A stretch of 64,000 nt of DNA, taken from NCBI GenBank assembly GCA_019635585.1, contig JAHBZE010000002.1:558001-622000 (forward strand), in the 5' to 3' direction. Positions 24,735 through 29,641 of this stretch are shown in pieces. The stretch's first letter is position 1, and each line of letters opens with the position of its first letter. This stretch comes from Xanthobacteraceae bacterium. GTDB taxonomy: Bacteria > Pseudomonadota > Alphaproteobacteria > Rhizobiales > Xanthobacteraceae. The position numbers were made by a program, and so were the translations under genes. The notes beneath the pieces are model-generated. The model was given only the letters and a program-made list of their open reading frames with translations, made no database searches and was not told the DNA's origin.

Positions 24735-25020
24735 CGTAGAAGAACCTCAGGACCGTGCTTCCGAAACCATCCGCGCAGGCGTTTCTTCCTGTGCTTCCGG
24801 TCTCCATTCCAGCCGTCACGAGCGAAGCTCGCCCCTCAAAGAGGGATCGGCGGCGCGTCGTAGTGCGCGCGGACGGTGACCCGAGGCCTCCCGGTATCCA
24901 TGGCTGCGAACCAAGGACAGCGGGCGCCGCACCCTTTCCTCCTCTGACGACGCCTCGCGAGAGCGGCCCCATGAGGAAAAGGCGATAGGAATATAGTCCG
25001 CTATACCTTCAAAGTCAAGA
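24735..25020 (-). repeat. Dispersed intergenic repeat, copy B, with built-in promoter
   Basis: On the minus strand it starts with TTGACT (25018-25013), a 17-base spacer and TATATT (24995-24990). The same blocks as copy A at 965-1340 follow in the same order: GGTTCGCAGCC, GGTCACCGTCCGCGCGCA, GGCTGGAATGGA, GAAGCACGGTCCTGA. It is most of the gene-free stretch 24641-25113. Any transcript would run toward the hairpin mosaic at 24347-24640. Confidence 0.7.
24990..25018 (-). promoter_or_regulatory. Sigma70-like promoter inside repeat copy B
   Basis: TTGACT and TATATT with 17 bases between, on the minus strand. Predicted start of transcription is near 24982, heading away from the gene at 25114. Confidence 0.6.
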
Positions 25021-25709: not shown

Positions 25710-25800
25710 TGCCAGTGACCCGAGGAGTTCTCGTACCCTAGATTGCGAACCGGGACAGCGGCCACGGCGCCCTTCCCTACTCAAGCGACGCGCGACAGCA
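25710..25800 (-). repeat. Truncated copy C of the dispersed repeat
   Basis: The minus strand carries AAGGGCGCCGTGG, GCTGTCC, GGTTCGCA and CCTCGGGTCAC in the same order as copy B, but the promoter and the 3' blocks are missing. It lies exactly between the zinc-ribbon gene and the low-GC two-gene cassette, so it marks one edge of that cassette. Confidence 0.6.
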
Positions 25801-25826: not shown

Positions 25827-27335
25827 TTAAAGCATCTTCGCAAAGTCGCGGTGATCAATGTATTCCTTGAACTTGCGAGTGAAGAGATCAGCTTCGTCTT
25901 CAAGGCCACTGACGTTCAGGGCGTGGATCAATCCTTTCCAATGACTTTCGCGCTCGGGATGATCCGCTACGAGCGATCTGTACAGATCAATAGATTTCAA
26001 GTTGTCCTGCGCTTCTAAATAAAGATCTGCGAGCTGACGTTTTGCAGCGAATAGCCCAGGAAACGCCCCTAAGACTCGCTCGTGCACCACAATAGCTCGC
26101 CGAAGCGGCTTCAATTTTCTCATCACAGGCAATAAAAAACCGCGCGATTTCTGCGATGCTGGCAATTTAGCGCGAGAATTGCTGTAGTAGCCTAAGAGGT
26201 CAAACGCTTCGGCGTCTCTGACCGCCTCAAAATGAGCCGCTATCAAGCGAAGTCTGGTGAGATGATCATGAGGAAACTTGTGAAGGGTATCGGAGTAAAT
26301 TGAGATCGCGTCCTCAACCTTACCCATCACTTTCAGTGTGGCGGCGTAGTCTCGCCACGCCGTGATCTCATCAGGAAACTTTGAAATTATCGCCTTGTGC
26401 GTTTCCAACGCATCATCAAAAAACTCCATTTTTCTAAAACCAATCGCGGCTTCTCTCCAAGCGAAAAGATTATCTGAAAAACTAGCTAGTGCCTGTTTAT
26501 ATAAGTTATACGCCTCTTCTTTTTCGCCTCTCTTCCTTAAAGTCGCGGCGTACTCCATCCAGATTTGTACGTCGAACGGGAAGCGCTTTATAACTTCTCG
26601 ATATAGATCCAGTACAGCTTCCCACTGACGTCTAATGCGCAACTCTTGAATAAGACGCGTTAGCTCTTCCCTTGTGAGTTGATCGTTACTGCCGTCAGCC
26701 AGATCAGATGATGTGGGCTGCCCAGTAGATGGCGTATTGCGCACCGAAACTTCTGAGTCGGATCGTATAGATTTTTCAGAAGAAAGGATTCGCGCTACTG
26801 AGCTTGCTTTTGGAGAAAGCGTAGCATTGCCTATCCAAGAGCGAGCAAGACTATCTGATTTTGCCTTAAGAACTGAAAAGCACTTCAGGACAAACGAAGT
26901 CTCCCGCGCCACATCGCCGACGAATCTAGCCAACTCCAGGGCCGCAAATGGATTCTTTGCAAAGTCGTCCTCATCTAGAACTTGCTGTAGCTGAGGAACG
27001 ATTCGAGCTTTATTGCCGACGACAATTTGACCACCAATCGTCTCATAAGCGTAGATGAGATAATCACCAAGCGAGACATCAACATCTAGTTGCCGATTGA
27101 CGGTCAGTAGGCGTGCGTCAACTAACTCAAAATCTTCCACAAAGTAGGAAATACGACCTTGATCATTGGAATATTGATATAGGAATGGACCTTGAGAATT
27201 ATCTAAACCTCTAAATACAGGCATTACTGCCGAAGGCTTCCTTTCGACGACACGAAGGAAGCCTGCGAGTTTTGCGGCTTTAACATCTGAGATTCTGAGA
27301 GATCGGAAAGAATTAATTCCCGCCGAGCCTTTCAT
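25827..27335 (-). CDS. TPR-repeat protein of the low-GC cassette, unknown N-terminal domain
   Basis: A 502-residue protein. Residues ~1-165 form an unrecognised mixed alpha/beta domain (VMPVFRGLDNSQGPFLYQYS; DVSLGDYLIYAYETIGGQIV), followed by a polar Ser/Thr-rich linker at ~165-220. From about 225 on, TPR-like helical repeats of 34-36 residues occur, such as WEAVLDLYREVIKRFPFDVQ, EEAYNLYKQALASFSDNLFA and LKSIDLYRSLVADHPERESH. TPRs bind partner proteins, so it probably recognises or holds another factor. ATG 27335 is preferred because it overlaps the upstream stop by ATGA; a frame start at 27395 would overlap by 64 bases. Codon use is AT-rich, unlike the neighbours. Confidence 0.75.
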   Translation of the reverse strand: MKGSAGINSFRSLRISDVKAAKLAGFLRVVERKPSAVMPVFRGLDNSQGPFLYQYSNDQGRISYFVEDFELVDARLLTVNRQLDVDVSLGDYLIYAYETIGGQIVVGNKARIVPQLQQVLDEDDFAKNPFAALELARFVGDVARETSFVLKCFSVLKAKSDSLARSWIGNATLSPKASSVARILSSEKSIRSDSEVSVRNTPSTGQPTSSDLADGSNDQLTREELTRLIQELRIRRQWEAVLDLYREVIKRFPFDVQIWMEYAATLRKRGEKEEAYNLYKQALASFSDNLFAWREAAIGFRKMEFFDDALETHKAIISKFPDEITAWRDYAATLKVMGKVEDAISIYSDTLHKFPHDHLTRLRLIAAHFEAVRDAEAFDLLGYYSNSRAKLPASQKSRGFLLPVMRKLKPLRRAIVVHERVLGAFPGLFAAKRQLADLYLEAQDNLKSIDLYRSLVADHPERESHWKGLIHALNVSGLEDEADLFTRKFKEYIDHRDFAKML

Positions 27336-28150
27336 CGCAAGAAGCCTTGCTTGCGGTAGAAATCTATTATTATTTGATAAATCTGCCCTGACCAAGTTTG
27401 CCCAGGCATCGCATTCAGAGCGTCATAGTTGAGCACGGTCGGAACATTCCAACGCGTTATCGCATCCCGAATGTCCGCGTCATCTAGATATGCCGTGGGC
27501 AGGATGATTGCCAGAAGTGCATCTGATAAATCAAATCGATCACTTATCTGGATTTCGATAGTAGATGATCGTTCGTCACCAGCACTACCATCTTTTTTCT
27601 GCGCAGGGTTTCTGGACAATTCATGCAATCCCTGAACTTCATACTGACGGTGAGGCACCTCAACATTCTTACGTGATCCGCCAAAAAAATACTCATTGTG
27701 ATCTTGGTTAAAAGCACCAACTATTTTTCGAACAGTCTCGAAAGACCCGTTCAAAATGAAGTCACTTAGCCTCGAATCTTTGTCGAAGTATTCTTCATAC
27801 AATTTGGCTGCGAAAGCACCAGAATCGAAAGGCATTACTCGCCGAATTTTCGCAATCTTATCGGGGTGAACTACGAAGACGATTGGCCAGCTGAATTCTA
27901 ATTGGCCGTTGTTATTCCCATGCGGACGAAATGCAGGTCGCCCGTAGAAAAAATAGAGCAGTTTCTCGTTGAATACTTTGCAGTGCTGAGGTTCTAAGTG
28001 ATTGCCATCAATTATGTCTTCAAACACAAATGAGCGAGTAATGTGAACGAGAGGTAATCGACCTTCAGCCTCTTTCTGATCATCAATATACTTGCTTAAT
28101 CTACCTTTTGCTCGTCTATTTTTCTTTTCTTCGTCCGTTGAATCGTTCAC
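27332..28150 (-). CDS. Unknown protein of the low-GC cassette
   Basis: A 272-residue soluble protein that I do not recognise. A basic, polar start (EEKKNRRAKGRLSKYIDDQK) is followed by LPLVHITRSFVFEDIIDGNH and LLYFFYGRPAFRPHGNN. Then come WPIVFVVHPDKIAKIRRVMPFDSGAF, a region with HRQYEVQGLHEL, and a C-terminal part with ILPTAYLDDADIRDAI. The spacing of His and Tyr near the N-terminus could fit an NAD-using ADP-ribosyltransferase-like fold, but this is weak inference. It begins with GTG overlapping the stop of the VWA gene (GTGA) and ends overlapping the TPR gene (ATGA). Base composition is markedly lower in GC than the VWA gene upstream. Confidence 0.72.
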   Translation of the reverse strand: MNDSTDEEKKNRRAKGRLSKYIDDQKEAEGRLPLVHITRSFVFEDIIDGNHLEPQHCKVFNEKLLYFFYGRPAFRPHGNNNGQLEFSWPIVFVVHPDKIAKIRRVMPFDSGAFAAKLYEEYFDKDSRLSDFILNGSFETVRKIVGAFNQDHNEYFFGGSRKNVEVPHRQYEVQGLHELSRNPAQKKDGSAGDERSSTIEIQISDRFDLSDALLAIILPTAYLDDADIRDAITRWNVPTVLNYDALNAMPGQTWSGQIYQIIIDFYRKQGFLR

Positions 28151-29328
28151 CTCACCAACTCCCGCATCGCTTCATCCAGCCCCTCTAACGTGAGCGGATA
28201 CATACGGTCGGAAAACAGCTGCCGCATCATGCGGATCGATTGCGTGTAGTCCCAGTGCTCGCGCGGCACCGGGTTCAGCCACACCGCGTGATGATAGATG
28301 CGCGTCACGCGCTCGATCCACGCCTGCCCCGGCTCCTCGTTCATGTGCTCGACCGAGCCGCCTGGCATCATGATCTCGTAGGGGCTCATGCTCGCGTCGC
28401 CGACGAAGATCACCTTGTAGTCGGACGGAAACTTGTGCAGCACGTCCCAGGTCGGCGTGCGCTCCGAGTGCCGCCGCACGTTCTGCTTCCACACGCTCTC
28501 GTAGAGGCAGTTGTGGAAGTAGAAGGTCTCGAGGTTCTTGAATTCCGTGCGCGCGGCGGAGAACAGCTCCGAGCACAGCTCGATGTGCCAGTCCATCGAG
28601 CCGCCGATGTCGAGGAACAGGAGCACCTTCACGGCGTTGCGCCGCTCCGGCCGCATCTGCACGTCGAGATAGCCGTGGTTCGCGGTCTCGCGGATCGTGC
28701 CGGGAAGATCGAGCTCGTCCGGCGAGCCGGTGCGCGCGAATTTGCGAAGGCGCCTGAGCGCGACCTTGATGTTGCGCGTGCCGAGTTCGACCGTGTCGTC
28801 GAGATCCTTGAACTCGCGCTTGTCCCAGACTTTCACCGCGCGGTTGTTGCGGTTCTTGTCCTGCCCGATGCGGATACCTTCGGGGTGATAGCCGTAGGCA
28901 CCGAACGGCGACGTGCCCGCGGTGCCGATCCATTTCGAGCCGCCCTGATGCCGGCCCTTCTGTTCTTTCAGGCGCTCGGCGAGCGTCTCCATGAGCTTGT
29001 CCCAGCCCAGCTCCTTGATCTGCGCCTTCTCTTCCTCGGTGAGATATTTTTCGGCGAGCTTGCGGAGCCATTCTTCCGGGATCTGCGCGGTGCCGGCGTT
29101 GTCCGACATCAGGTCGAGGCCCTTGAAGACATGGCCGAACACGCGGTCGAATTTGTCGAGATTGCGCTCGTCTTTGACGAGCGTGGCGCGCGACAGGAAA
29201 TAGAAATCCTCGACGCGCCGGTTCGCGAGATCGGAGTCGCTATTCAGCGCCTCCATCAATGTGAGGTACTCGCGCACCGTGACCGGAAGGCCCGCCGATT
29301 TCAGTTCGTTGAAAAACTGGATGAACAT
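28147..29328 (-). CDS. CoxE-like von Willebrand factor A protein
   Basis: A 393-residue protein. The N-terminal half is a helical CoxE/VWA-accessory region (FNELKSAGLPVTVREYLTLM; LSRATLVKDERNLDKFDRVF). The VWA domain starts near 232 with VKVLLFLDIGGSMDWH. The metal site D240-x-G-x-S244 deviates from D-x-S-x-S but is typical of this subfamily. VIFVGDASMSPYEIM gives the later aspartate. These proteins work with MoxR ATPases in activating metalloenzymes; the likely partner is at 14579-15421. Start 29328 follows the stop of the membrane protein by one base. The stop is shared with the GTG of the low-GC gene downstream. Confidence 0.85.
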   Translation of the reverse strand: MFIQFFNELKSAGLPVTVREYLTLMEALNSDSDLANRRVEDFYFLSRATLVKDERNLDKFDRVFGHVFKGLDLMSDNAGTAQIPEEWLRKLAEKYLTEEEKAQIKELGWDKLMETLAERLKEQKGRHQGGSKWIGTAGTSPFGAYGYHPEGIRIGQDKNRNNRAVKVWDKREFKDLDDTVELGTRNIKVALRRLRKFARTGSPDELDLPGTIRETANHGYLDVQMRPERRNAVKVLLFLDIGGSMDWHIELCSELFSAARTEFKNLETFYFHNCLYESVWKQNVRRHSERTPTWDVLHKFPSDYKVIFVGDASMSPYEIMMPGGSVEHMNEEPGQAWIERVTRIYHHAVWLNPVPREHWDYTQSIRMMRQLFSDRMYPLTLEGLDEAMRELVR

Positions 29329-29329
29329 T

Positions 29330-29641
29330 TCAGATTCCGTCGCCGCTCGAATAGGGCTCCCGGGTTGTACGGCGCCGTGCCCGGAGCGCAAGTAGCGCAC
29401 CCGCGAGCGGTCCGCCGACAGAAGCCAGCGCGCCGAACGCCAGCCATTCCGTCCAGCGCTCGCGCACTTGCGGCTCCGCGATGACGGCCAGCCGATACAT
29501 ATAATAGGCGACCGCGGCACAGAGCAGAGCGATTACCACCGGCACCATCACGTCCCGCACCAGATGAAACCTCGCCCAGCACAGACGATAGGTCAGCGCC
29601 AGGCCGAAAAACGCGACAACGCCAAGAGCACTCATCCGCAT
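29330..29641 (-). CDS. Small membrane protein upstream of the VWA gene
   Basis: A 103-residue protein with three probable helices: at about 5-20, 30-52 (VMVPVVIALLCAAVAYYMYR) and 67-87. It has a basic C-terminus (RARRRTTRE). It lies immediately before the VWA gene with one base between stop and start, so it is in the same operon. ATG 29635 is an alternative start. No family was recognised. Confidence 0.65.
   Translation of the reverse strand: MRMSALGVVAFFGLALTYRLCWARFHLVRDVMVPVVIALLCAAVAYYMYRLAVIAEPQVRERWTEWLAFGALASVGGPLAGALLALRARRRTTREPYSSGDGI

Follow-up and report, generated by a model that had tools for sequence, protein, structure and literature searches.

A predicted ADP-ribosyltransferase paired with a protein of exchangeable, partly host-like tails: a candidate integrated-decoy receptor of bacteria

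In a 64,000-nucleotide stretch of a Xanthobacteraceae genome (GenBank assembly GCA_019635585.1, contig JAHBZE010000002.1, positions 558,001 to 622,000; hereafter the window), we analysed two overlapping genes, A and B. Together they are probably a mobile system with a likely anti-phage role: A encodes a predicted ADP-ribosyltransferase (ART) toxin that would be held by the constant N-terminal domain of B (B-N), and B continues into an exchangeable tail, the presumed bait. What is observed is a conserved A-B pairing, a constant B-N, swapped tails, near-copies of resident proteins among these tails, replacement of some motif residues and defence-rich surroundings. Since a constant predicted toxin and a constant adaptor are combined with host-copied tails that sometimes lack motifs, the integrated decoy is the simplest account. 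That the pair is a modular bacterial immune receptor, in which an ART toxin and a constant adaptor are joined to a library of host-derived, often inactivated baits and any phage factor attacking the real protein triggers the toxin, we consider about an even chance.

In its structure model, A adopts an ADP-ribosyltransferase fold, which is predicted to be DarT-like. Seven positions of A (H36, Y66, D109, G111, D192, R194 and E199) are invariant among 78 aligned sequences (alignment A3, covering loci from L020 onwards except the fragments or duplicates L058, L068, L074, L075, L084, L097, L102 and L104). By their conservation, H36, Y66 and E199 may correspond to the H-x-T, Y and E active site of DarT, and R194 may correspond to the catalytic arginine R51 of DarT2. 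A had no match in Pfam, PADLOC or NCBIfam up to an E-value of 1. The Pfam DarT family (PF14487) did not match A up to the same value, nor the 15 members of A1, nor any protein in the window's genome. At E<=1e-10, a database search returned 479 A proteins, counting that of the window; among the 120 matches listed there was no Pfam domain, and names, where given, were 'hypothetical protein'.

The pair recurs widely. In total, 80 of 96 confirmed genome loci were kept, mostly from Alphaproteobacteria; by record titles, the other hosts are other Proteobacteria, Bacteroidota, Bacillota, Verrucomicrobiota, Acidobacteriota, Planctomycetota and Chloroflexota, many of them metagenome-assembled. A was also found on five viral contigs and, by tblastn, in 12 plasmid records; in the 8 of these records that are annotated and have A undamaged, the following gene overlaps it or begins <=90 nt away. 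The A profile matched in 103/104 loci. A profile made from the N-terminus of the window's B matched 95/100 second open reading frames (ORFs), namely those of the window and of 99 loci (all except L001, the window itself, L019, with no A by profile, and L068, L074 and L097, with no second ORF). In L027 and L095 the match lay in a neighbouring ORF instead, and in L012, L044 and L058 there was none in the second or a neighbouring ORF. When all 6516 ORFs of the 104 loci, to which this search was confined, were compared with the B-N profile, 98 matched, every one adjoining A, and none did among the reversed ORFs. Because the profile was built from these same loci, the weight rests on the adjacency to A and on the reversed control. 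B-N starts <=100 nt from the stop of A in 91/94 pairs (median 9 nt), so that A and B form a conserved co-directional pair of overlapping or adjacent genes, as in toxin-antitoxin systems. The loci L014/L055, L017/L084, L022/L075 and L010/L013 are duplicates, and the counts are not fully independent. On one viral contig (L020:1-10130), A is 48-49% identical to that of the window, and the pair lies between ORFs that, judged only by eye, resemble tail and lysis genes.

The modelled B-N consists of strands followed by helices (pLDDT 92.5). No macrodomain was among the folds listed for this model, although absence from the fold list does not exclude one, and the window's B had no macrodomain or NADAR match in Pfam. 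The first-pass annotation had read B as a domain of about 165 residues joined to TPR repeats, which proved correct: the N-domain is found by profile and Pfam finds TPR in the second half. In other genomes the tail is repeatedly a whole domain of a housekeeping or defence protein. Tails seen include DnaA, FtsZ, ribosomal protein S9, cold-shock protein, peroxiredoxin, SpoT, helicases, ornithine monooxygenase, a restriction subunit and an A-like protein. A Pfam batch of 89 B proteins (the above set less L012, L013, L015, L027, L044, L055, L058, L075, L084, L089 and L095) gave 62 families, 25 of which were listed, by family and not by protein; the tails named here were assigned individually. The tails of L003, L004 and L006, reported singly, had no Pfam domain. 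Five tail clusters, those of L003, L004, L030, L040 and L080, consist of tails of 290-750 residues and may be baits that copy unknown proteins. The ORF that follows B in L049 (L049:6679-8406) and the tail of that B are homologues (E 9e-36); the ORF may encode the guarded protein or be a duplicated bait. Another B (L081:6758-8026) has as its tail a degenerate copy of A with replacements at H36 and Y66, which may serve to bait inhibitors of A.

Several tails are homologous to a protein of the same host. Ten baits, each from a different genome, were compared with the resident proteins, and eight of them have a clear homologue there at 34-85% (DnaA, FtsZ, three S9, peroxiredoxin, SpoT and cold-shock protein); the tails of L020, L036, L042, L046, L065, L066 and L079 lay outside this comparison. 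Identity to the resident protein was 83.3% (384/461) for DnaA, 84.8% for peroxiredoxin, 70.9% for FtsZ, 80.8, 73.1 and 61.8% in the three S9 genomes, 34.0% for SpoT and up to 43/63 for the cold-shock tail. The other two baits are the DnaA-like tail of L073, 21% identical to the resident protein, and that of L069, for which no resident copy was found. A fourth S9 genome yielded the fused copy alone. For the window's TPR tail, a resident protein reached only 21%, and no resident or well-matched cellular model was found.

Judged from their sequences, some of these copies look inactivated, as residues are replaced in motifs with functional roles in the respective proteins. In the DnaA copy, S replaces the last Walker A glycine, which 13/13 other DnaA keep, and AP replaces DH in GGRDHTTV. 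The cysteine of PVCTTE is replaced by S in the peroxiredoxin copy, and the SpoT copy has other residues in place of the NGYRSIHT stretch. No clear motif loss was seen in the S9 and cold-shock tails, the remaining tails being judged at most by eye, and the FtsZ tail retains its C-terminal peptide. In a leave-one-out comparison the DnaA copy alters 3/35 invariant positions and its own host none; since other hosts alter 0-8 (0-3 without L118), the count alone decides little.

We infer that A is toxic, that B-N inhibits it, that triggering goes through the bait and that phages are the trigger. On this reading the constant N-domain of B would restrain A, and the exchangeable C-terminus would mimic a cellular protein that phages attack, thereby acting as bait; in the window the presumed bait is the TPR array. 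Phage factors directed at the real protein would bind, modify or degrade the bait instead, and the resulting change or loss of B would set A free. Freed A would ADP-ribosylate a target, by its modelled fold likely nucleic acid, and growth would stop before phage release.

The same tails could instead be address labels rather than sensors, with B as an accessory delivering the ART to the ribosome, the origin, the septum or DNA. The S9, cold-shock, DnaA, FtsZ and helicase tails each have a cellular address, and the retained FtsZ peptide fits this; however, the DnaA copy lacks the DH pair of GGRDHTTV and the Walker A glycine, and the peroxiredoxin, ornithine monooxygenase and A-like tails have no obvious address, which makes targeting fairly unlikely. 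A plain toxin-antitoxin or addiction pair, whose tails have nothing to do with phages and either vary neutrally or serve just to stabilise the antitoxin, would agree with the overlapping two-gene order and with the carriage on plasmids and viral contigs. We regard it as unlikely, as neutral tails would not repeatedly be whole housekeeping or defence domains, some of them close in sequence to the resident copy.

A further reading, in which functional effector or accessory enzymes have been added as C-termini to a constant toxin module, is quite improbable: some tails have replaced active-site residues, and others, such as S9 and FtsZ, are structural and without effector chemistry. Least credible, with hardly any probability, is that the housekeeping tails have no function and arose when the pair inserted next to or within host genes. 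The pair of L032 does lie directly behind the resident dnaA, a copy of which its B carries; yet the resident copies of FtsZ, peroxiredoxin and the three S9 cases are on other contigs of the draft genomes, and the corresponding tails are both long and in frame.

Among known systems, DarTG resembles the pair in the modelled ART fold of A, possibly in its invariant H, Y and E set, and in gene order, the toxin gene being first in DarTG as well. The tail of B in L079 matched chain 7yk3_B of a DarTG complex (DNA ADP-ribosyl glycohydrolase; E 2e-26), which we take to be the C-terminal domain of DarG. The pair differs from DarTG in that A has no Pfam DarT match, the window's B no macrodomain or NADAR match, and the tails of B are swapped. 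Plant NLR (nucleotide-binding leucine-rich repeat) immune receptors with integrated decoys likewise combine a constant immune protein with a fused, variable copy of something that pathogens target; in contrast, the present toxin is a separate gene, the system is bacterial, and neither NB-ARC nor leucine-rich repeat matches were found in the window's A or B. CmdTAC comprises an mRNA ADP-ribosyltransferase, an antitoxin and a SecB-like chaperone, and its toxin is freed when a phage protein is sensed (PMC11618068). This is the same principle, release of an inactive ART toxin by phage-protein sensing, for another ART, but CmdTAC has three genes and a chaperone sensor, whereas the unit conserved here has two, with the exchangeable tail fused to B (no chaperone scan was made of the small ORFs past B). 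PARIS, Ronin and Panoptes detect phage counter-defence via a look-alike or decoy (PMC12409349), and thus share sensing of the guard or decoy type; as described there, each uses one kind of look-alike, whereas here they are varied and include housekeeping proteins. Our literature search recognised no description of the A-B pair.

The layout of the locus is given in Table 1.

Table 1. Features of the A-B locus in the window
Feature	Position	Strand	Basis or remark
Gene A, 272 aa, GTG start	27332..28150	minus	ORF; predicted DarT-fold ADP-ribosyltransferase
Gene B, 502 aa, ATG at 27335	25827..27335	minus	ORF; constant N-domain and variable C-terminus
B residues 20-174, conserved N-domain (B-N)	26814..27278	minus	profile and model
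TPR array of B (residues 223-482), its exchangeable part and presumed bait here	25890..26669	minus	
CoxE-type VWA gene, upstream of A, insertion-site anchor	28147..29337	minus	
Segment lacking an equivalent in the same-genus relatives L155 and L156	25001..28148		flanked by homology to 25000 and the VWA gene
Degenerate repeat copy	25715..25791		copy of 24876-24953

Both genes were present as first annotated, with 272 and 502 codons, the start of A overlapping the VWA stop by GTGA and its end the start of B by ATGA. Their low GC content was also borne out (A 43.3%, B 46.8%, whole window 61.7%) and is common in the family: A lies >2 points under its flanks in 72 of the 81 loci measured and >5 points under in 62. 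The truncated repeat described at the other edge exists, but it is weak (73-77% identity between the copies), and the comparison with L155 and L156, in which homology ends at 25000, gave no support for it as the edge of the element. Positions 993-1247 of the window and the end of the segment 24211-25000 (about 24750-25000) match one same stretch in L155/L156, the degenerate repeat being a third copy.

The region downstream of the VWA gene differs between same-genus relatives. The VWA gene is present in 8/8 same-genus genomes searched, its own included, and A was not found in six other same-genus genomes (completeness 72-100%; the seventh relative, G544, was not searched for A). Among 149 genomes of the family, A was found in seven, its own included and one (G014) a marginal fragment at 9e-4. 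Homology of the window to L155 and L156 breaks off at 25000, with an identity of the flank up to that point of 75% and 91%, respectively, and restarts at 28149 within the VWA stop; therefore the variable stretch is wider than A and B. The corresponding gap in L156 is 3.3 kb and holds neither A nor B. In L155, a dGTPase-family gene of 524 aa (L155:8067-9641) lies there behind the VWA gene; it matches solved structures of dGTP triphosphohydrolases (up to 4e-52) as well as the Pfam families HD and HD_assoc. Among 86 control ORFs, one was matched by the PADLOC dGTPase model (1.4e-122), this gene being the sole family member in that set. The site thus takes alternative cargo and is a small variable cargo spot, although dGTPases serve either in defence or in housekeeping. 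A transferred two-protein system, perhaps a defence or stress module, as first suggested, is supported by the pairing elsewhere, the apparent absence of A from relatives and its predicted DarT-like fold, with defence as the presumed function.

The A family adds a large, unnamed group of predicted ADP-ribosyltransferases. If the integrated-decoy reading is true, the pair would be a bacterial counterpart of the plant integrated-decoy receptors, and phage targets could be read from genomes, each tail nominating a host protein attacked by phages. The baits would then form a natural catalogue of phage targets for each host, and the many tails without a recognised domain may copy proteins with an unsuspected role in phage infection.
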